In this document: piece by piece, positions 21,570 to 35,290 of the stretch
Layout: each line of letters starts with the position of its first letter
Position numbering within the stretch: position 1 is the first letter of the stretch
Source: Natronosalvus caseinilyticus
Lineage (GTDB): Archaea > Halobacteriota > Halobacteria > Halobacteriales > Natrialbaceae
Length of the DNA: 64,000 nt
Assembly (NCBI RefSeq): GCF_017357105.1
Contig: NZ_CP071596.1
Coordinates: 3,782,001 to 3,846,000 of the forward strand
Reading direction: 5' to 3'
Translations under genes and position numbers: made by a program
The notes under the pieces: generated by a model
Seen by the model: only the letters and a program-made list of their open reading frames with translations
Told to the model about the DNA's origin: nothing
Database searches by the model: none

Positions 21570-22055
21570 TCACCGGAACACGTCGTATCGGAGGAGATAG
21601 CGAACCACCCCGAGCAGGTATGCCACCAGCCAGAAGAACACGTAGCCGAAGACGCCCACGCGAAGTCGCCGTCGCCAGGCACCCATGTGCTCGTGGAGGT
21701 CGTCGAGGTCGACGTCCTGGTCGGGGTTGCCGTAGACGTCGTGGGTAAGTTTGACCTGGAGGATACGAACGATGCCGGTCAGCGCGACGAGTAACATCGC
21801 GTACGCCTGGAGCCCGAAGAACGCGTGCACGGCCGCTAGCCCGCTTATCTGCTCGAGCACCCGCGGTGCCATCCAGAGGAGGACGGGAATCGTGTTCAGG
21901 ACCAGACCCACGGCGATGACCTTCAGGTGATAGACGAGGACGTCCCAGGTGACAATCTCCGCGTCGATCATGATCCAGGCGCCGTAGAGGTAGAAGGGGA
22001 AACTGGCGGTGACCATCACGAGCGCGACGGTGGCCGTCGCCAGCTCAGAGACCAT
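21570..22055 (-). CDS. four-helix membrane protein, haloarchaeal family (DUF7321-type)
   Basis: 161 aa. Four hydrophobic segments are visible (residues ~5-30, ~42-62, ~75-100, ~135-155) with a charged loop (VYGNPDQDVDLDDLHEHMGAWRRR) before the last. The spacing and conserved-looking WMAP and HAFFGLQAYA stretches suggest a DUF420/cytochrome-like small membrane protein, but I cannot assign a function. The family number is from memory. Confidence 0.6.
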   Translation of the reverse strand: MVSELATATVALVMVTASFPFYLYGAWIMIDAEIVTWDVLVYHLKVIAVGLVLNTIPVLLWMAPRVLEQISGLAAVHAFFGLQAYAMLLVALTGIVRILQVKLTHDVYGNPDQDVDLDDLHEHMGAWRRRLRVGVFGYVFFWLVAYLLGVVRYLLRYDVFR

Positions 22056-22225: not shown

Positions 22226-22588
22226 TTATGCGACGCCGGCGTTGTCGTCGAACTCGGCGTACTCGCGGAATGCCCTGGACGCCTCGAGCACGGGGTGGTC
22301 CCGCCGTCTGACGTGGTTGCTCCGCTCGTCGTACTCGAGGAGCCCAACGTCGGCTAATTTCGGGAGTCCGGCGTGGTGCAGGTAGATCGCGGCATCTCGC
22401 GGCGATTCCGCCGCGCAGTCGAACTGAGCGTCGACGACGTAGTTAGCGAGTTCGTCGAGCGAGGCGACGTCGTCGGTGCAGCGGTGGAAATAGTCTATCA
22501 CTCCACGGGTGTACCCGTTCGAGAGTATTGATTGCAGGTCGTCGATTGTCTCGGGGTCGAATTCGTCCTCGAGGGTTGGTCTCGACAT
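22226..22588 (-). CDS. DUF7344-type winged-helix protein
   Basis: 120 aa. SNGYTRGVIDYFHRCTDDVASLDELANYVVDA..., then AAIYLHHAGLPKLADVGLLEYDERSNHVRRR, is the pattern of the small haloarchaeal HTH family in which a helix-turn-helix is followed by a HxGLPKLxxxGLLxYD motif. A related protein is encoded at 34060-34464. It probably binds DNA; targets unknown. Adjacent regulator at 22661-23320 is in the same direction. Confidence 0.72.
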   Translation of the reverse strand: MSRPTLEDEFDPETIDDLQSILSNGYTRGVIDYFHRCTDDVASLDELANYVVDAQFDCAAESPRDAAIYLHHAGLPKLADVGLLEYDERSNHVRRRDHPVLEASRAFREYAEFDDNAGVA

Positions 22589-22660: not shown

Positions 22661-23320
22661 TCAGTCGAAGTCGGCCGCAGTCGAGAGTAATATCTCACTG
22701 AGCACCTGCTTCGTACCCCGACGTACGCGGTTGGAGACGGCCTGCTGGGAGATGCCGAGTTCGTCGGCGAGTTCGTCTAGACTCGCCTCGCTCGGCGTGT
22801 CGAAGTAGCCGCGACGGAGCCCGAGGACGAGGGCTTCGCGTTGCTCGTCCGAGAGGCCGAACTGGTGGACGCTCTCGGTTCGCTCGGTGACCGTGTAGGT
22901 TCGATTGATGTGGATAGAGATGCCTTCGTCGGTGATGTAGTTGTGAAACCGCGAGAGCTGGTCGTGGTCCGGAAATCGAACGTGGAACTCCCAGCCGTCG
23001 TTGCTGTACGCCTGTAACACCGTCCCCTGTGCGTCCGTGATTCCTTGGATCAGATCAGTGTGATGATCGTGCCACGTGACGCGGTACAGAACCGCGTTCT
23101 CGACGCGGTCGATGGCGATGATGTCCTCGACGAAGCGGTGTGAGACGACCTTCTCCTCGAACGAGGCGTAGTCCTCGCCTGATACCCACAGAAATGGCAT
23201 CGCGGAGTCTCCAGTGGGGACGATCCGCTCGAGTTCGATGCGCATCGACGGCGGACCAGATAGCACCTGTCCGAGTGTGAACTGGTCGCTCTCGACGGTA
23301 AACTCCAGCGTGACGCTCAT
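22661..23320 (-). CDS. bacterio-opsin-activator-type HTH regulator
   Basis: 219 aa. The N-terminal ~150 residues form the haloarchaeal BAT/HTH-10 associated domain (VTLEFTVESDQFTLGQVLSGPPSMRIELERIVPT..., GWEFHVRFPDHDQLSRFHNYI). The C-terminal HTH_10 (LSDEQREALVLGLRRGYFDTPSEASLDELADELGISQQAVSNRVRRG) is the hallmark of Bat-like regulators. Signal and regulon cannot be told from the sequence. It ends just upstream of the DUF7344-type gene (22588) in the same direction and is divergent from the gene at 23489. Confidence 0.87.
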   Translation of the reverse strand: MSVTLEFTVESDQFTLGQVLSGPPSMRIELERIVPTGDSAMPFLWVSGEDYASFEEKVVSHRFVEDIIAIDRVENAVLYRVTWHDHHTDLIQGITDAQGTVLQAYSNDGWEFHVRFPDHDQLSRFHNYITDEGISIHINRTYTVTERTESVHQFGLSDEQREALVLGLRRGYFDTPSEASLDELADELGISQQAVSNRVRRGTKQVLSEILLSTAADFD

Positions 23321-23488: not shown

Positions 23489-24307
23489 ATGACCGACGCT
23501 TCGGACGAACCGTCCGCCGGCCGAACGACCGAGCCGTCGGCCGACCCTGCGGCGACCGGAGATGACGACCAGTCAGTCGAGGACCTCCGCCGGCAGGTCG
23601 AGGCGAAGTACGACTTCGAGAACTTCAGCGAGGCCGATATGGCCGAGATAAGCCCGGAGGAGTGGGACGTCGCCTTCGACGCGGACACCTGGATCACCGG
23701 CGACGAACTCCTCGAGCGCGTCGAACGGGAACTCAAATCCCGGATCGCCTACCGGGAGGTGTTCGCGATGCTCGAGTACGCCGTCGTCGACGGCCGACGA
23801 AGTCTCGTCGCGTACTCCGACACCGATTACGCGATCATCTTCCCGGACGGAACCGTCGAGGGCCGCGGAACGGTCGTTCGCGACGTCAAACCCACCGTCG
23901 CCCTGTGTTCGATGGAGAGCTACGACGTCGAGGAACCGCCCGCCGACTGGCACCTCCCCGAGCCCGCCGACCTCGAGGGCGAACACAGCGAACTCGGCAA
24001 CTGGATGCTCCAGTTGCTGGCGGCTGCCCAGCTCGTCATCGGGGTCGTCGCGATCGGGGTCTGGCTGGTGCAGGGACTCCAGTCCCAGCTCGTCCTCGGC
24101 ATCGTGGGCTTCGCGCTCGTCGTCATCTCGCTCGTGCTGTTCTTGATGGTGGCGAACGCCCGACTCTCGAATCGATTCCGGACCGAAGCGTACGAGTCGC
24201 GCCTGCGAACGATCGGCTCCGGGGATCGGCCCTCGTTTCTCCCCATCGACGACGAGGCCTTCGAGCGCGACGCACCGCCTCGAAATCGGTCGCCGCTCGA
24301 GGAGTAA
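23489..24307 (+). CDS. membrane-anchored protein at the head of the bc locus (DUF7319-type)
   Basis: 272 aa from ATG 23489 (MTDASDEPSAGR). A disordered polar N-terminus is followed by a soluble region (residues ~30-165, FENFSEADMAEISPEEWDVAFDADTW...) and two hydrophobic helices (~175-200 and ~203-227), then a polar tail. It lies 75 nt upstream of the halocyanin gene in the same direction and probably belongs with the cytochrome bc-type genes. No cofactor motif is seen. Confidence 0.65.
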   Translation: MTDASDEPSAGRTTEPSADPAATGDDDQSVEDLRRQVEAKYDFENFSEADMAEISPEEWDVAFDADTWITGDELLERVERELKSRIAYREVFAMLEYAVVDGRRSLVAYSDTDYAIIFPDGTVEGRGTVVRDVKPTVALCSMESYDVEEPPADWHLPEPADLEGEHSELGNWMLQLLAAAQLVIGVVAIGVWLVQGLQSQLVLGIVGFALVVISLVLFLMVANARLSNRFRTEAYESRLRTIGSGDRPSFLPIDDEAFERDAPPRNRSPLEE

Positions 24308-24349
24308 CACCACGATACTGCGGGGCACGGCCAGCGGCTGCATCGGTGG

Positions 24350-24357
24350 GTTTAAGC
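24350..24357 (+). promoter_or_regulatory. TATA box of the cytochrome bc operon
   Basis: GTTTAAGC lies ~30 nt before the halocyanin ATG at 24383. Confidence 0.45.
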
Positions 24358-24382
24358 GAACACGTTCCTGAGTCCACACTGT

Positions 24383-25042
24383 ATGAAGAGGCGGGAGTTT
24401 ATGGTAGCGGCCAGCGGCGTGTCCGGGGGTGCCGTAGCCGCCACTGCTGCGACACCCGTCGTAGCCCAGGAAGAAGAGGACGGTAACGACACCGAAACAG
24501 GTGACGGTGGCGACGGAAACGACACCGAAGCCGGCGGCGAAGAAGGCGGCAACGAGTCTGCCGACGGCAGTGGCGGAGGCGGCGGAGGCGGCGGCACCGA
24601 AACCGTCGAAGTCGACGACAACGAGTTCGTTCCCGCAGATCTAACCGTTCAACCCGGCACGACGGTCGTCTGGGAGTGGGTTGGCGACGCGGATCACAAC
24701 ATCGCCCCGAGCGAGATCCCGGAAGACGCTGACTGGGAGGGACACCCCGATCTTCAGTCGGATGGGACGTACGAACACACCTTCGATGTCGAAGGAACGT
24801 ACGACTACATCTGTGAGCCTCACGTGAGCGTTGGCATGACTGGTTCCATCGAAGTGACCCAGGACGCAGGCGGCGAAGGCGCAGCGGCCGCCGACGTCGA
24901 CATCCACGACCTCGGCGTCCCGATCCAGAAGCACTTCGTCGGCGTCGCGTCGTTCTTCGCGATTTTCATCGCCCTCGTCTTCACGTTCTACCTGCTGAAG
25001 TACGGTGAATCGGCCAACACCAGCAGCCCAGGGAGGAAATAA
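24383..25042 (+). CDS. hcp: halocyanin (blue copper protein) with C-terminal membrane anchor
   Basis: 219 aa. It begins with a Tat-like signal (MKRREFMVAASG), then a Glu/Gly/Asn linker (30-75) and a cupredoxin domain (~75-160). The type 1 copper ligands are His105, Cys144, His147 and Met152 (ICEPHVSVGM). A hydrophobic helix at ~186-206 follows. It carries electrons between the bc complex and an oxidase, taking the role of cytochrome c. The extra C-terminal anchor is notable: it would make it an integral part of the complex rather than a mobile carrier. Followed by 25045 with a 2-nt gap. Confidence 0.88.
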   Translation: MKRREFMVAASGVSGGAVAATAATPVVAQEEEDGNDTETGDGGDGNDTEAGGEEGGNESADGSGGGGGGGGTETVEVDDNEFVPADLTVQPGTTVVWEWVGDADHNIAPSEIPEDADWEGHPDLQSDGTYEHTFDVEGTYDYICEPHVSVGMTGSIEVTQDAGGEGAAAADVDIHDLGVPIQKHFVGVASFFAIFIALVFTFYLLKYGESANTSSPGRK

Positions 25043-25044
25043 CC

Positions 25045-25449
25045 ATGTCATCGTCAGGAAGCACCTACGGCGATATTCACCGCTACGAACCCCCACGTGA
25101 GAGCACCGCCGCGGCGATCGCGATCGTCCTGCTGACGTTCGTGCAGATCATCTTCGTCTCGCTGTTCGTGTACGGTCTCTCGGCGAACTGGGCGATCGCT
25201 GGACTCGATGCCGGCGTCGGGAACACGTTCCTCGGGTTCTTGCTGTCGGCGATTTTCCTCAACCTCGGGTTCATCCTCCTGCTGTACCGCAAGGAGTTCC
25301 TGCCCGACGTGATGATCGTCAAGAAGCGCCGTCGCAAGTGGGAAGACCTCTACGTCCGCGAGTCAGACGTCGAGGGACAGACGCTGTCCGACGACGCCGG
25401 TGCATGGGACACGATCAAACGCGCAATCTACCCCTACTACAAACGATAA
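25045..25449 (+). CDS. two-helix membrane protein of the bc operon (DUF7318-type)
   Basis: 134 aa, with Shine-Dalgarno GGGAGGAA upstream of the ATG. Two hydrophobic helices (~22-47 and ~55-82) are flanked by a basic loop (YRKEFLPDVMIVKKRRRKWEDLY) and a conserved-looking end (IKRAIYPYYKR). Conserved between halocyanin and Rieske genes in haloarchaea. No cofactor ligand is visible. Probably a small subunit or assembly factor of the complex. Confidence 0.7.
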   Translation: MSSSGSTYGDIHRYEPPRESTAAAIAIVLLTFVQIIFVSLFVYGLSANWAIAGLDAGVGNTFLGFLLSAIFLNLGFILLLYRKEFLPDVMIVKKRRRKWEDLYVRESDVEGQTLSDDAGAWDTIKRAIYPYYKR

Positions 25450-25452
25450 CCA

Positions 25453-26331
25453 ATGGCTAACGACGACAAATATCCAGTCGAGTCCGATCGTCGCCGCTTC
25501 GTCAAGGGCGTCGTCGGTGGGTCCGTGCTCGCCGGCGTGCTGACGACTGGCGCAGTCGCCGTCTCGAGCGCGACCGCTCCCTCGAGCGGCGGTGGCGGGT
25601 TCGTCAACTACTTCGGCGCGGAACGAACCGCCGGTCCGGCCCCCCGCGGACTTCCACAGATTCCCATCGAGATCGACGACGATGGACAGCTGCTCGGAAT
25701 CTGGCCCGAGCCAGAAACGCAAACCCTCCCCGACGGGAGCGAATTCACCGAAGCGAGCATGGAACTCGGCGGCGTGGAGTACACGACCGAGTGGTACCAG
25801 TACTGCGGCGTCCAGACGTTCGGCGGGATCAAACCCGACGCCGATGGCGAGGATCAGGTCCTTCGCTACGACGCCGGTTCGTACGAGTGGATGTCGGACG
25901 TCGAGAACGGCGACCCGATGCTCACCGAGGATTTCGAGGACTACGACGAGTGGACCAACGACATCGGCGAACCGGGCCAGGGTAAACCCGCAACGGGAAC
26001 CTGGCGGTCACAGAACGTTCCCCCGGAACAGACCGTTCCCGTGCTGGTGATCAAGACGGATCAACTCGACGTCGACAGCATGGACGACGCCACCCGCGAG
26101 TGGGTTGAAGCGTCCTGCCCCGAGGACGAAGACGGCGGGCGCTACCTCGGCTACGTCAACAAGTGTACGCACTTCTGCTGTGCGCCGGGTTACCGAACGC
26201 TCGACGACGCAGCGGCGTTCGGCGCCGCGAACGAAATTTACTGCAACTGCCACAACTCCGTCTACAAACCCTTCAACATCACCGAACAGCAGTTCGTGGC
26301 GCTCCCGCGACCGGAGGGTGATGACGAATGA
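25453..26331 (+). CDS. petA: Rieske iron-sulfur protein
   Basis: 292 aa. The N-terminus has a Tat-like motif (RRRFVKG) and one hydrophobic helix (~18-40) that anchors it. The Rieske cluster boxes are C238-T-H240-F-C-C243 and C264-N-C266-H267-N-S, giving the 2Fe-2S ligands plus the disulfide cysteines. The long insertion between anchor and cluster (~45-225) is larger than in bacterial Rieske proteins. It oxidises quinol with the cytochrome b subunits encoded next. Its stop overlaps the next start by 4 nt. Confidence 0.92.
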   Translation: MANDDKYPVESDRRRFVKGVVGGSVLAGVLTTGAVAVSSATAPSSGGGGFVNYFGAERTAGPAPRGLPQIPIEIDDDGQLLGIWPEPETQTLPDGSEFTEASMELGGVEYTTEWYQYCGVQTFGGIKPDADGEDQVLRYDAGSYEWMSDVENGDPMLTEDFEDYDEWTNDIGEPGQGKPATGTWRSQNVPPEQTVPVLVIKTDQLDVDSMDDATREWVEASCPEDEDGGRYLGYVNKCTHFCCAPGYRTLDDAAAFGAANEIYCNCHNSVYKPFNITEQQFVALPRPEGDDE

Positions 26332-27122
26332 GCTTAGAGCGCAAAGACGAACACGACCACGGTGCGTGGCTCGCCGAGAAGGACCTCTCGCTCATCGAGA
26401 AATCCTACCTGACGATGCTGATCTGGCTCGACCGACGGCTCCGACTCGTCGACTACCTCGAGTTGCTGGAGGACATGTACTACAAGATCAACCTCCAGAT
26501 GCCAAAGAGCCACACCGAACAGTACAACCTCGACAACAAGTTCTGGTACTGGTATCCGCTCTACGCACTGGGTTCGTTCTCACTGCTCGCGTACATCGTC
26601 GCCGCGATAAGCGGCGCACTGCTGGGCTTTTACTACTCCCCGTCGACGGCCGGCGAAACGCCGGTTGCGTACCAGACCGTCGAGGCGATCATGGCGGATC
26701 TCAACTTCGGATTCATGCTCCGGAGCATCCACCGCTGGTCTGCGCAAGTGATGGTCGCCGCGGTCTTCTTGCACATGCTTCGCGTCTACTTCACGGGCGC
26801 GTACAAGGAACCGCGTGAGGTCAACTGGCTGCTCGGCGTCGTACTTCTGGCGCTGACCGTCCTCTTCGGGTACACCGGCTACCTCCTGCCCTGGAACCAG
26901 CTCGCGTTCTGGGCGGGACAGATCGGCGTCGAGATGGCGATTTCGGTCCCCATCGTCGGCGAGTGGGCCGCGAACCTGCTGTTCGGCGGTCTCAGCCTCG
27001 GGCAACCGACGCTCCAGCGGATGTACATCCTGCACGTGTTCGTCTTGCCGTTCGTCGTCACGGCGCTGATCGCACTCCACATTGGCATCGTCTGGATGCA
27101 GGGCATCGCCGAACCACACTGA
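26328..27122 (+). CDS. petB: cytochrome b, N-terminal (b6-like) subunit
   Basis: 264 aa with four membrane helices (~75-100, ~135-155, ~168-188, ~232-256). The haem ligands are H135/H149 and H236/H251, spaced 13 and 14 residues as in b6-type subunits. The N-terminal 60 residues are soluble. It forms the quinol-oxidising core with the Rieske protein and with the following gene, which supplies the C-terminal half, so cytochrome b is split here as in b6f complexes. Confidence 0.93.
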   Translation: MSLERKDEHDHGAWLAEKDLSLIEKSYLTMLIWLDRRLRLVDYLELLEDMYYKINLQMPKSHTEQYNLDNKFWYWYPLYALGSFSLLAYIVAAISGALLGFYYSPSTAGETPVAYQTVEAIMADLNFGFMLRSIHRWSAQVMVAAVFLHMLRVYFTGAYKEPREVNWLLGVVLLALTVLFGYTGYLLPWNQLAFWAGQIGVEMAISVPIVGEWAANLLFGGLSLGQPTLQRMYILHVFVLPFVVTALIALHIGIVWMQGIAEPH

Positions 27123-27128
27123 TCTACT

Positions 27129-27902
27129 ATGACTGATACAGACACCGACGCAAACAACGACGTCCGAACCGACGGAAGCGGCACCGGCATCGTCGCTCCC
27201 GACGACGAGGTGCCGACCTGGAGCGAACGCAAAGAGCGAACGACCGGGCTCTCGCGACTCACCTACGAGTACTTCGAGCGGGCCCGCCGGGAGGACCAGG
27301 ACCTCCGTCAGGAGTCGAGTTACGTCGAGCGCGACGTACTCGGCTTCCCCGCCTGGCCCCACGAGACGATCCGAAACCTCGCACTCGCGAGTTTCTTCGT
27401 CGGTATGTTGCTGTTCCTCGCGGCGTTGTTGCCACCGACGATCGAGGACCCGGCAAATCCATCCGAGACGCCCTCGGTCATCCTGCCCGACTGGTACCTC
27501 TACTGGTCGTTCGGTCTGCTGCACCTCGAGTCGCTGAACCCCGAACTGGCGCTCGCCGGGGGCGAGAAGATCATGTCCGACCAGCTCTACGGCGTGCTGG
27601 CGAACGGCGTCGTCTTCGGGGCAATCGCGGTTCTCCCGTTCCTGAACAAGGGGAGCGCCCGGCGGCCCGTCGAGGAGCCGTTCTGGGCATCGATTGGCGT
27701 CGGCGGCGTCATCTTCGCGTTCACGCTATCGCTCCTGCCGATCGAGGCCATGTTCCCCTGGGACGTCCACATCACGTTCGACATGGCGTTCTTCCTGCCC
27801 GTCATCGGGGCTATCATCACCTACGCGGTGTTGAAGACGATGCGGGAGGGGTACATGTACAACCTCAACAAGCGGTACTACCGATTACGACCGCCGCGGT
27901 AG
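27129..27902 (+). CDS. petD: cytochrome b, C-terminal (subunit IV-like) subunit
   Basis: 257 aa. A soluble N-terminal ~75 residues is followed by helices at ~87-108, ~150-168, ~178-200 and ~210-232. The PDWYLYWSFGLLHLES stretch corresponds to the conserved PEWY quinol-site motif as PDWY. Six nt after petB, clearly co-transcribed. Confidence 0.88.
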   Translation: MTDTDTDANNDVRTDGSGTGIVAPDDEVPTWSERKERTTGLSRLTYEYFERARREDQDLRQESSYVERDVLGFPAWPHETIRNLALASFFVGMLLFLAALLPPTIEDPANPSETPSVILPDWYLYWSFGLLHLESLNPELALAGGEKIMSDQLYGVLANGVVFGAIAVLPFLNKGSARRPVEEPFWASIGVGGVIFAFTLSLLPIEAMFPWDVHITFDMAFFLPVIGAIITYAVLKTMREGYMYNLNKRYYRLRPPR

Positions 27903-28048
27903 GTCGTTGCGTACGGGCTTTTACTTTCGTCGTTCACGGTGGTGTCCAACCAGCCGCTGTGTTTCTCCATCCAGTCGAGCCGCTCAACTCGAGACGTACC
28001 GCCGAGTGAAGTCAAAGTACTCATTTTCCGTCGCCGCGTAGCCAGGCT

Positions 28049-28471
28049 ATGAGCGGCTCAGAATCGGGGTCGGACCCGCCGGCGGAGGAGGCGCGGACGG
28101 GAGAGCGCGAACGAGGCCTCGAGGACGGGGACGGGGGCGAGAAGGAGAGCGAGAGCGATGGCACCGCCGAAGGACCTCGAGTCGGCGCCTCGGGACAGCG
28201 CGAGGTCGTCGTTCCCATGCGGTTGTACAAGACGATCACCGTCTTCTCGACGCTGCTCGCGGTGGTCGCCATTCTCGGCGGGTTCATCGTACTCGACGTC
28301 GCGACCGATCGAGCACAGGCGGCGGCTTCGGACGTGAGCATCGGGCTGGCGTTGCTCGGCGTAGCGCTGATCGCGTGCGGGGCCGGAGCCTACGCGTTCT
28401 CGACCCGATTTCGAACGGCTGGAATGGGAAACGCTAAAGACGACGCCGACGAAGGATCACACAATGGCTGA
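28049..28471 (+). CDS. two-helix membrane protein of the bc locus (DUF7315-type)
   Basis: 140 aa. A Glu/Gly/Ser-rich N-terminus (1-55) is followed by VVVPMRLYKTITVFSTLLAVVAILGGFIVL and ALLGVALIACGAGAYAFS (two membrane helices). It lies 146 nt after petD and overlaps the next gene by 8 nt. It co-occurs with haloarchaeal bc loci. No function known. Confidence 0.65.
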   Translation: MSGSESGSDPPAEEARTGERERGLEDGDGGEKESESDGTAEGPRVGASGQREVVVPMRLYKTITVFSTLLAVVAILGGFIVLDVATDRAQAAASDVSIGLALLGVALIACGAGAYAFSTRFRTAGMGNAKDDADEGSHNG

Positions 28472-28727
28472 CGAATTCGTCAAGGGCTTCGTAATCCTGT
28501 CCCTCGGGCTCCTGGTGTGGATGACCTTCGCCGGCTGGTACAACACGCCGTCGTTCTACGACACCCAGCTCGTCGGACCGAACCCCGAAGACCCCGGCAC
28601 GTACACGACGCTGGCACTGGTCGTCAAGGAAGCGGCGTTCTACTTCGGTATCCTGGGCGCGGTCACGTTCTGGGCACTCATCCCGGCTGGCCGGCGCGTG
28701 CGAACCCACTACGCCGAGAACAACTGA
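28464..28727 (+). CDS. small two-helix membrane protein of the bc locus (DUF7314-type)
   Basis: 87 aa with helices ~7-25 and ~58-78 around a loop (WYNTPSFYDTQLVGPNPEDPGTYT). It overlaps the previous gene by 8 nt, so it is in the same transcript. The final position and size suggest a minor subunit of the cytochrome complex. Confidence 0.65.
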   Translation: MADEFVKGFVILSLGLLVWMTFAGWYNTPSFYDTQLVGPNPEDPGTYTTLALVVKEAAFYFGILGAVTFWALIPAGRRVRTHYAENN

Positions 28728-34059: not shown

Positions 34060-34464
34060 TCACTCGTCGTCGAGCGCGAGCGACGATTCCGGACGGTAAT
34101 CGCCGCCGACCGGCGACGCGGGTGCCACCGGTACCGACTCGTCGAGTTCGATCGCTCGCTCGACGATGCGCCGCGTCTCGAGGTCGACGTCCGCTCGAGT
34201 GACGCGTCCGTTCTCGGCGTCGTAGTCGACCAGCCCCACCTCGTCGAGTTTCGGCACGTGGTTGTGTACCAGCGAAACGGTGATCATCGAGCCTCGGACG
34301 ACGGCGTCGTCGGCCCCCGCTCGCTCCCAGCCGACGACCTCGTCGCAGAGTTCCTCGAGGCTCACCTCCGGACGGGCCAGTAGTAGCGACAGCACGTACC
34401 GGCGCCGGGCGTCCGCAAGCGCCTCGAAGAGCGGCTCCACCGATGGGGTTCGAACGGTTGACAT
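34060..34464 (-). CDS. DUF7344-type winged-helix protein, second copy
   Basis: 134 aa from the ATG at 34464 (MSTVRTPSVEPLFEAL). ADARRRYVLSLLLARPEVSLEELCDEV and SLVHNHVPKLDEVGLVDYDAENGRVTRADVD are the HTH and the HxxVPKLxxxGLVDYD motif of the family, as in 22226-22588. Longer Pro-rich tail. Convergent with the uncharacterised 33124 gene; AlaX starts further upstream in the same direction. Confidence 0.72.
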   Translation of the reverse strand: MSTVRTPSVEPLFEALADARRRYVLSLLLARPEVSLEELCDEVVGWERAGADDAVVRGSMITVSLVHNHVPKLDEVGLVDYDAENGRVTRADVDLETRRIVERAIELDESVPVAPASPVGGDYRPESSLALDDE

Positions 34465-34519
34465 AACTACTACCGGGACCCTCTCCCCCTCAATAATTCC
34501 GCCAAAAATATTAGGGCGG

Positions 34520-35290
34520 TTACTCGAGGAGCCGAAACCTGACACGTTCCTCCCCGCTTCCGGCAGTTTCGCGGCCAGTGATCTCGAGGGTGCCGAGGTC
34601 CGCGGTCGACTGGACGTGCGTGCCGGCACACGCCACCCGGTCGAGTGGGTCGTTCTCGTCCCCGATCTCGACGATCCGGATCTCCGTGATGCTGGCGGGC
34701 AGGAGATCGATGCGCGTGCGTTCGAGGTCCAGGTCGGTTTCGGCGACGTCGCGCTCGAGTTCGTACCAGCGAACGGCAAGGTCGTCGTCGATCAGGTCGT
34801 TGATGGCCGCCTCGATCGCCGCGAGATCGTCGTCCTGGAAGCGGTCGTACGCGCAGTCGAGGCGGGCGCGGTCGGCGTAGAGCTGGTTGCCCGTCGTCGG
34901 CGCGTCGTAGGCCTCGAGCAGGTACGCCGAGAGGAGGTGCTGGGCCGTGTGATAGCGCATGTGTGCGTCCCGTCGATCCCAGTCGAGTTCGCCGGTCACG
35001 GTTGTTCCGGGCTCGAGGGCGTCCGTGATCGACGCGGCCGTCGAATCTGGACCCGCCTCGAGATCCAGGGCGTGGTACACCGTATCGCGTTTCTGGACGT
35101 CAGCGACGGGCCACTCGAGCGTCGCTCCGTCAGCGTCGACGCGAAGGGTCCCCGTGTCCGCCGGCTGGCCCCCGCCTTCGGGGTAGAAGTGCGTTCGATC
35201 GAGGACGACGCGGCCGTCCTCGAGGATTCGCTCGACGGTGGCATCGAACGTTCGAACGTTCGAGTCCTCGAGGTACAGGAGGTCGGTCAT
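34520..35290 (-). CDS. alaX: alanyl-tRNA editing protein AlaX
   Basis: 256 aa from the ATG at 35290. It hydrolyses Ser-tRNA(Ala) or Gly-tRNA(Ala) in trans. The editing site zinc ligands are visible as HTAQH and CAGTH, with an upstream EGGGQPADTGTL stretch. Start supported by ATATAT (35316-35321) 28 nt upstream; leaderless. Length fits the medium AlaX-M class. Confidence 0.93.
   Translation of the reverse strand: MTDLLYLEDSNVRTFDATVERILEDGRVVLDRTHFYPEGGGQPADTGTLRVDADGATLEWPVADVQKRDTVYHALDLEAGPDSTAASITDALEPGTTVTGELDWDRRDAHMRYHTAQHLLSAYLLEAYDAPTTGNQLYADRARLDCAYDRFQDDDLAAIEAAINDLIDDDLAVRWYELERDVAETDLDLERTRIDLLPASITEIRIVEIGDENDPLDRVACAGTHVQSTADLGTLEITGRETAGSGEERVRFRLLE

Follow-up and report, generated by a model that had tools for sequence, protein, structure and literature searches.

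We analysed a 64,000 nt stretch of the genome of the haloarchaeon Natronosalvus caseinilyticus (NZ_CP071596.1, positions 3,782,001 to 3,846,000; here called the window) that contains a gene cluster for a Rieske/cytochrome b complex. Eight open reading frames (ORFs) lie on the same (+) strand across 23489-28727, and consecutive genes are separated by 75, 2, 3, -4, 6, 146 and -8 bases. A first-pass annotation, made from the sequence alone, had described a Rieske protein, a split cytochrome b and a C-terminally anchored halocyanin without a cytochrome c1, accompanied by four small membrane proteins. ORFs, motifs, hydropathy and a scan for CxxCH all agree with the first part of this description. 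The four additional membrane proteins (DUF7319, DUF7318, DUF7315 and DUF7314) are also present, although the product of the gene at 23489 is not small (272 amino acids, aa). In 5′ to 3′ order, followed by a divergently transcribed neighbour, the features are:

23489-24307, + strand: DUF7319 protein, 272 aa, predicted soluble N-terminal domain and two C-terminal transmembrane (TM) helices (PF24003, E 5.7e-89)
24383-25042, + strand: halocyanin with an N-terminus of the twin-arginine translocation (Tat) type and a C-terminal TM anchor (PF00127)
24938-24994, + strand: C-terminal TM anchor of the halocyanin, aa 186-204 (hydropathy, alignment)
25045-25449, + strand: DUF7318, two-TM hairpin protein (NF050121, hhalign, AlphaFold2 (AF2) hairpin model)
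25453-26331, + strand: Rieske protein, 292 aa, with a single Tat-type N-terminal TM anchor (motifs, TIGR01416)
25615-25722, + strand: apparently permuted segment of the Rieske protein, aa 55-90, which includes TAGPAPRGLPQIPIEIDDDGQLLG (alignment to the C-terminal part of QcrA)
26164-26181, + strand: Rieske cluster motif 1, CTHFCC, aa 238-243 (C238, H240, C242 and C243 invariant in 28 of 28)
26242-26253, + strand: Rieske cluster motif 2, CNCH, aa 264-267 (C264, C266 and H267 invariant in 28 of 28)
26328-27122, + strand: N-terminal half of cytochrome b, b6-like (PF00033, E 1.1e-45)
27129-27902, + strand: C-terminal half of cytochrome b, subunit-IV-like (PF00032)
27486-27497, + strand: motif PDWY of the quinol oxidation (Qo) site in the C-half (invariant in 14 of 14)
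28049-28471, + strand: DUF7315, two-TM protein with a long acidic N-terminal tail (PF23997, E 7.8e-32)
28464-28727, + strand: DUF7314, two-TM protein of 87 aa with an invariant MADEF start (PF23996, E 1.6e-35)
21570-22055, - strand: DUF7321, multi-TM protein, divergent neighbour (PF24007, E 7.2e-78)

Pfam assigned the families DUF7319, Copper-bind, DUF7318, Cytochrome_B, Cytochrom_B_C, DUF7315 and DUF7314 to the cluster. The Rieske product had no Pfam family at E up to 0.1 and did not reach the gathering cut-off of the Rieske family PF00355. Its match to the NCBIfam model TIGR01416 (E 4.6e-6) was below the cut-off of that model. We regard it as a Rieske protein because it carries the motifs CTHFCC and CNCH and matches TIGR01416.

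The order of the parts of this protein turned out to be unusual, a point that the first-pass annotation had missed. A canonical Rieske protein consists of the anchor, basal strands, motif 1, motif 2 and finally the GPAxR Pro loop with the last strands. None of the 28 window-type Rieske proteins that we collected, eight from the clusters, with the window among them, and 20 taken from additional genome stretches, has this order. The segment GPAPR...LPQIPIEIDDDG stands before motif 1 in 28/28 and after motif 2 in 0/28. For comparison we used QcrA, the actinobacterial Rieske subunit (30 loci, retained from the 98 of 149 genomes of the actinobacterial phylum that matched the QcrA model), and the Rieske protein of a second haloarchaeal Rieske/cytochrome b complex. 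The matching segment follows motif 2 in all 30 QcrA proteins (29 by pattern, L179 by eye) and in 32/32 Rieske proteins of the second complex (33 loci were searched, one of them without a match; L048 and L056 hold the same gene).

Profile comparisons revealed the same crossing of the parts. In a search against PDB chains, aa 60-81 of the Rieske family profile aligned to positions 369-390 of QcrA from C. glutamicum (7q21_A), beyond the cluster motifs at 324-362, and aa 224-269 aligned to these cluster motifs. Against the NCBIfam QcrA profile the segment at aa 55-90 of the window protein fell on positions 283-304 of 319. When aa 50-92 were moved to the C-terminus, the hhalign score against QcrA increased from 62.3 to 111.9 (E 1.7e-8 to 3.6e-16; all E-values quoted from hhalign refer to one comparison), and the score against the Rieske protein of the second complex increased from 53.8 (29 columns) to 85.2 (170 columns). 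When 17 segments of 43 residues were moved one after another, only those that include about aa 60-77 gave a clear gain. The stretch aa 45-95 alone reached a score of 59.2 (E 1e-10), compared to a maximum of 20.6 in 60 shuffled controls. By these alignments the Rieske protein of the window appears to be circularly permuted, as do all 28 members of its family collected here.

Three observations weigh against this view. With HMMER against PDB chains, the rotation improved the best E-value only from 4.7e-5 to 1.6e-5, which we ascribe to the fact that separate pieces are summed there anyway. The moved segment resembles C-termini of the QcrA type rather than the mitochondrial ones. The Pro-rich LPRP/RPRP end of the protein might itself act as a Pro loop. 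The last point leads to a different explanation, in which the GPAPR segment is an extra piece that arose by a partial duplication or fusion at the N-terminus, and the head is closed by the C-terminal LPRP/RPRP Pro loop. A conserved Pro-rich stretch does end the C-termini after motif 2, and circular permutations commonly arise via a duplicated intermediate, which would fit such an origin. No second copy of the segment was found after motif 2 in any of the 28 proteins, however, and the rotated piece is collinear with the canonical last-strand segment over 170 columns in the comparison with the second complex, so that we consider an added piece unlikely and prefer the permutation.

Within the permuted family C118, C238, H240, C242, C243, C264, C266 and H267 are invariant in 28/28 sequences. 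C118 and C242 are additional to the set usual in Rieske proteins. In canonical Rieske heads the cluster domain is inserted into the basal domain, and the C-terminal part of the Pro loop forms the second link between them, as described in the accessible text of PMC12954380. From the order of the parts we infer that permutation would cut this second link and join the Pro loop to the tether.

The gene just upstream of the Rieske gene encodes DUF7318, which has two helices, an invariant EFLPDV stretch and, past helix 2, conserved basic residues. All 16 members of this family matched NF050121 (bc1_QcrA_actin), with a best E-value of 1.8e-6, and 11 of the 16 matched the Pfam family QcrA_N. The window protein aligned to positions 20-99 of the 319 positions of NF050121 (E 4.2e-4). 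Against the 30 QcrA proteins hhalign gave 57% for DUF7318, 75% for the corresponding hairpin of the second complex and 89.6% for a profile merged from both (E 1.9e-6), and none of 60 column-shuffled controls scored as high. The other four small-protein profiles did not exceed 12.2% in this comparison. DUF7318 and the hairpin of the second complex matched each other with 94% (E 1.5e-7; 0/60 shuffled controls as high), and ten other pairings of small proteins stayed at or below 3%. In agreement with this, AF2 predicted a hairpin for DUF7318 (mean predicted local distance difference test (pLDDT) 70.4, predicted template modelling score (pTM) 0.50).

Several results point in the opposite direction. 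The scores of the window DUF7318 are below the curated cut-offs, with 16.2 of 27 bits for PF19297 and 19.9 of 275 bits for NF050121, the latter being a cut-off for the full-length protein. The DUF7318 profile found no PDB chain at E values up to 10 and no match in four genomes of the Streptomyces group, and hhalign gave only 0.4% against a narrow QcrA profile from that group. The hairpin protein of the second complex matched no QcrA model, nor did phmmer find any PDB entry for it. The DUF7318 model superimposed on 8hcr_M with a Z score of 8.1 (82 aligned residues, root mean square deviation 5.4), tied with unrelated hairpins. QcrA was represented by three entries (8hcr_M, 7e1v_A, 8ovd_G) among the 50 fold-comparison matches listed; since these entries sit among many unrelated hairpins, we did not use the fold comparison as proof.

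In QcrA of M. tuberculosis the TM helices TMH1/2 and TMH3 form two arms that are joined near the cytoplasmic side (accessible text of PMC8616580), and such a layout makes a split into two chains at this place structurally easy. Judged by the profile matches, DUF7318 is homologous to the N-terminal TMH1/2 hairpin of actinobacterial QcrA and would thus represent the detached front of the Rieske subunit. The first-pass annotation had listed the four additional proteins as candidates for unrecognised subunits. For the gene at 25045, which encodes DUF7318, this candidacy is strongly supported by the homology to the QcrA hairpin.

A similar arrangement was found for the second complex. Two haloarchaeal Rieske/cytochrome b complexes were reportedly described by Baymann and colleagues in 2012. 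In three loci of the second complex (L048, L052 and L053) the gene directly 5′ of the Rieske gene encodes a four-TM protein (L048, 8280-8999; L052, 3665-4249; L053, 4632-5207; in L052 and L053 it is labelled hypothetical). The hairpin at the C-terminus of this protein matches DUF7318 (E 3.1e-4 for L048). The L048 Rieske protein covers the remainder of the QcrA model, positions 120-315. By these matches the second haloarchaeal complex shares the split between hairpin and Rieske protein, with a homologue of DUF7318 encoded directly ahead of the Rieske gene. The first-pass annotation had likewise missed this second complex with its hairpin. Unlike the window complex, the second complex has a four-TM hairpin protein, a single-chain cytochrome b and the canonical order of the Rieske parts, and in L052 and L053 it adjoins a molybdopterin oxidoreductase.

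To compare the cluster across genomes, we used iterated profiles to call genes in stretches of 10-20 kb around DUF7318 from 21 other genomes. Apart from two exceptions, 21/21 of these loci share the order DUF7321 (divergent)/DUF7319, halocyanin, DUF7318, [Rieske], cytochrome b N-half, cytochrome b C-half, DUF7315, DUF7314, which shows that the cluster is not due to chance. The Rieske gene lies outside the cluster in 14 of the 21 loci (13 of family f4, plus G134), and DUF7319 and DUF7321 are missing from the G134 locus. DUF7321 adjoins the cluster in 20 of the 21 loci. The displaced Rieske genes belong to the loci L027-L031, L034-L041 and L047, and those that were fetched still have the permuted order. 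In L028 about 2 kb lie between the C-half of cytochrome b and DUF7315, while other loci have little or nothing there.

The distribution of the families was compared in 145 genomes of the order by reading the printed genome lists. The profile of the cytochrome b C-half matched in 117 genomes, 107 of them at E < 1e-100; the other ten had only matches at E > 1e-20, the level of the second complex. DUF7318 matched in 110 genomes, 107 strongly, and the remaining three (G280, G295, G304) had only weak matches to the second complex. The permuted Rieske profile matched in 109 genomes, again 107 strongly, and DUF7314 and DUF7315 were found in 107 genomes each. Strong matches to split cytochrome b, DUF7318, DUF7315, DUF7314 and the Rieske protein define an identical set of 107 genomes. 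DUF7319 and DUF7321 each occur in 106 genomes, namely in every genome of this set of 107 except G134. The 38 genomes without split cytochrome b have none of these families. This co-occurrence pattern is that expected of subunits or dedicated assembly factors, and the shared set of 107 genomes implies that the extra genes belong to complex III or to its assembly.

Some genomes deviate in copy number or occurrence. G273, G204, G254 and G305 have an additional strong match to the C-half of split cytochrome b elsewhere in the genome, and six genomes of family f6 (G209, G234, G271, G276, G291, G305) have 3-5 matches each to the permuted Rieske profile, some of them broken by stops. In family f1, to which the window genome (G000) belongs, only four of the genomes listed (G000, G242, G247, G252) have the complex and at least 20 relatives are without it. 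A plasmid search with the window Rieske protein gave six records, all haloarchaeal, with copies in Haladaptatus, Halobaculum and Halorussus.

For the remaining proteins the candidacy put forward by the first-pass annotation depends on distribution. The genes at 28049 and 28464 remain candidates by strict co-occurrence and synteny only, and the same applies to the gene at 23489, for which a role as assembly factor is equally likely. DUF7315 and DUF7314 are most likely supernumerary membrane subunits, and we propose DUF7319 and DUF7321 as candidate accessory or assembly proteins. Since G134 has neither DUF7319 nor DUF7321 but retains the other genes, these two are as likely to be assembly factors as subunits. 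The two histidines of DUF7321 that are invariant in 14 sequences, H43 and H77, could bind haem.

For DUF7314, DUF7315, DUF7319 and a fixed halocyanin the status as subunits is a prediction, and all the DUF proteins might instead be assembly factors or co-regulated membrane neighbours of complex III. The divergent transcription of DUF7321 and the absence of DUF7319 and DUF7321 from G134 would be in line with this. Homology of DUF7318 to a part of a true subunit argues against it, as does the presence of DUF7314 and DUF7315 in all 107 genomes with the complex and in none of the 38 without it. We therefore regard it as improbable that none of these proteins is a subunit, and keep DUF7318, DUF7315 and DUF7314 as putative subunits.

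Comparisons with known proteins gave little further information on these families. Profiles of DUF7314, DUF7315 and DUF7319 found nothing credible among solved structures. No match stood out in the fold comparison of the DUF7319 model (pLDDT 74.3); its soluble domain was barely tested, since the matches cover mostly the two TM helices. PsbY was considered as a relative of DUF7314 and rejected, as no stretch of the match passes alone, and so was the N-terminal hairpin of the four-TM protein of the second complex (hhalign 2.4%).

The core of the complex has the features of the bc1/b6f superfamily, with two histidine pairs, the Qo motif P-E/D-W-Y and the Rieske motifs CxHxxC and CxCH (28/28). The haem-ligand histidines H135, H149, H236 and H251 of the cytochrome b N-half are invariant in 11/11 sequences and align to those of cytochrome b6, which also provides the closest solved relatives of this half (E 7e-50). 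In cytochrome b6f a cysteine of the N-half binds haem ci covalently. The N-half of the window is without any cysteine and has an alanine opposite the Cys of b6, so the haem ci cysteine of the b6f type is absent. Subunit IV is the best solved relative of the C-half, for which hydropathy indicates four hydrophobic segments; subunit IV of b6f has three. The window complex is thus like b6f in its split cytochrome b and in the nearest solved relatives of both halves, and differs from it by the absence of cytochrome f and of the haem ci cysteine and by the longer, four-segment C-half.

No CxxCH motif was found in the eight cluster proteins or DUF7321, and none of these nine proteins qualifies as a c-type cytochrome subunit (c1, f or QcrC); no search of the rest of the genome was made. 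The halocyanin reaches 51.1 bits against PF00127 (cut-off 21.2), which identifies it as a type-1 copper protein, and stays below the curated cut-off of the halocyanin model TIGR03102 (60.6 versus 93.8 bits). Its predicted copper ligands H105, C144, H147 and M152 are invariant in 14 sequences. Hydropathy shows a single hydrophobic segment, aa 186-204, close to the C-terminus. The anchor with the stretch before it has a mean conservation of 0.689, compared to 0.566 for the cupredoxin domain and 0.349 for the linker. That the anchor is more conserved than the copper domain suggests contact with fixed partners.

We propose the halocyanin as electron acceptor in place of cytochrome c1, cytochrome f or QcrC, where it would be permanently docked. 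The anchored halocyanin could instead be mobile and replaceable, with lipoprotein halocyanins doing the work and no fixed acceptor subunit in the complex. Eight halocyanins are predicted for Hfx. volcanii and described as mobile carriers in the accessible text of PMC6267482. With the halocyanin gene inside the cluster in 22/22 loci (window included) and the anchor region more conserved than the copper domain, we consider a purely mobile carrier rather unlikely. Anchor conservation and the QcrC-like topology lead us to prefer the halocyanin as a resident acceptor subunit.

Taken together, we assign a probability of about 0.74 to the view that the main complex III of haloarchaea is encoded here, in the form of a Q-cycle menaquinol:halocyanin oxidoreductase that has a two-chain Rieske subunit, a permuted head and DUF proteins as subunits or accessory proteins. 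Gene content, motifs, co-occurrence, hairpin homology and the permuted order were computed; the physical complex and the electron path we infer, and permanent docking and the fold of the permuted head are predicted in the same way. Menaquinone is the haloarchaeal quinone (accessible text of PMC8305020), and together with the PDWY site and the four invariant histidines it points to a Q cycle. Menaquinol would be oxidised at the Qo site that bears PDWY. One electron would then cross the membrane via the two b haems of a cytochrome b that is split past the fourth helix, and the other would pass from the Rieske cluster to the halocyanin and on to an oxidase. Its own C-terminal helix would keep the halocyanin next to the complex, in a layout like that of QcrC, cytochrome c1 and cytochrome f. 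DUF7318 would provide the TMH1/2 hairpin of the Rieske subunit, and the Rieske protein TMH3 and the head, in which the Pro loop and last-strand segment would come right behind the membrane anchor, with the cluster motifs close to the C-terminus.

A more detailed version of this mechanism is tentative and, in our view, has the odds against it. The tether would run directly into the Pro loop over the cluster, the cluster domain would hang on one covalent link to the basal domain instead of the canonical two, and a Cys118-Cys242 disulfide would substitute for the other. Together with the hairpin and the anchored halocyanin, this might create a fixed path from Rieske cluster to copper to oxidase without a cytochrome c.

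The function as a quinol:halocyanin oxidoreductase, also suggested by the first-pass annotation, is well supported, and the general idea has been published before. A haloarchaeal complex III with a probable halocyanin acceptor and a b6-like cytochrome b is described in PMC8305020, whose accessible text does not name the DUF proteins, the QcrA hairpin or the order of the Rieske parts. The petABD complex III of Haloferax volcanii (HVO_2620, HVO_0842, HVO_0841) is the same complex as that of the window, and all five DUF families were also found in this species. No report of the Rieske permutation, of the relation of DUF7318 to the hairpin or of DUF7314, DUF7315, DUF7318, DUF7319 and DUF7321 was found in the open-licence papers searched, which is weak evidence of absence. 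The two-chain Rieske subunit and the circularly permuted head, as predicted here, are the new features, and the halocyanin-linked complex III itself is known.

A close parallel is the actinobacterial bcc complex (QcrCAB). According to the accessible text of PMC8795186 and PMC8616580, it likewise oxidises menaquinol, combines a hairpin of the QcrA type with a Rieske anchor and head, has PD in the Qo motif and carries an acceptor subunit with a C-terminal TM helix; QcrC has one such helix (PMC8795186). In contrast to the window, where the equivalent of QcrA would consist of two chains, QcrA and cytochrome b are one chain each in actinobacteria and the Rieske parts have the usual order. QcrC is a dihaem cytochrome c, and a copper protein takes its place in the window.

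Few parts of respiration and photosynthesis are as conserved as the Rieske head, and the Q cycle depends on the swing of this head between cytochrome b and the acceptor. A natural permutation throughout a family would shift the point where the tether meets the cluster and would allow a test of how far this geometry counts. The complex is also of interest for the "haloarchaea paradox", i.e. that cytochromes c have been purified yet not found in the genomes (accessible text of PMC4429474). In addition, Pfam families without a function gain a concrete and testable place in a complex of a genetically tractable archaeon.

A related pair of proteins of unknown family is encoded in the window at 22226-22588 (-) and 34063-34791 (-), with an E-value of 1e-44 by iterated profile. 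The first of them sits between the DUF7321 gene and a BAT/HTH_10 regulator (22661-23320), and these two genes intervene between DUF7321 and the cluster in the window.

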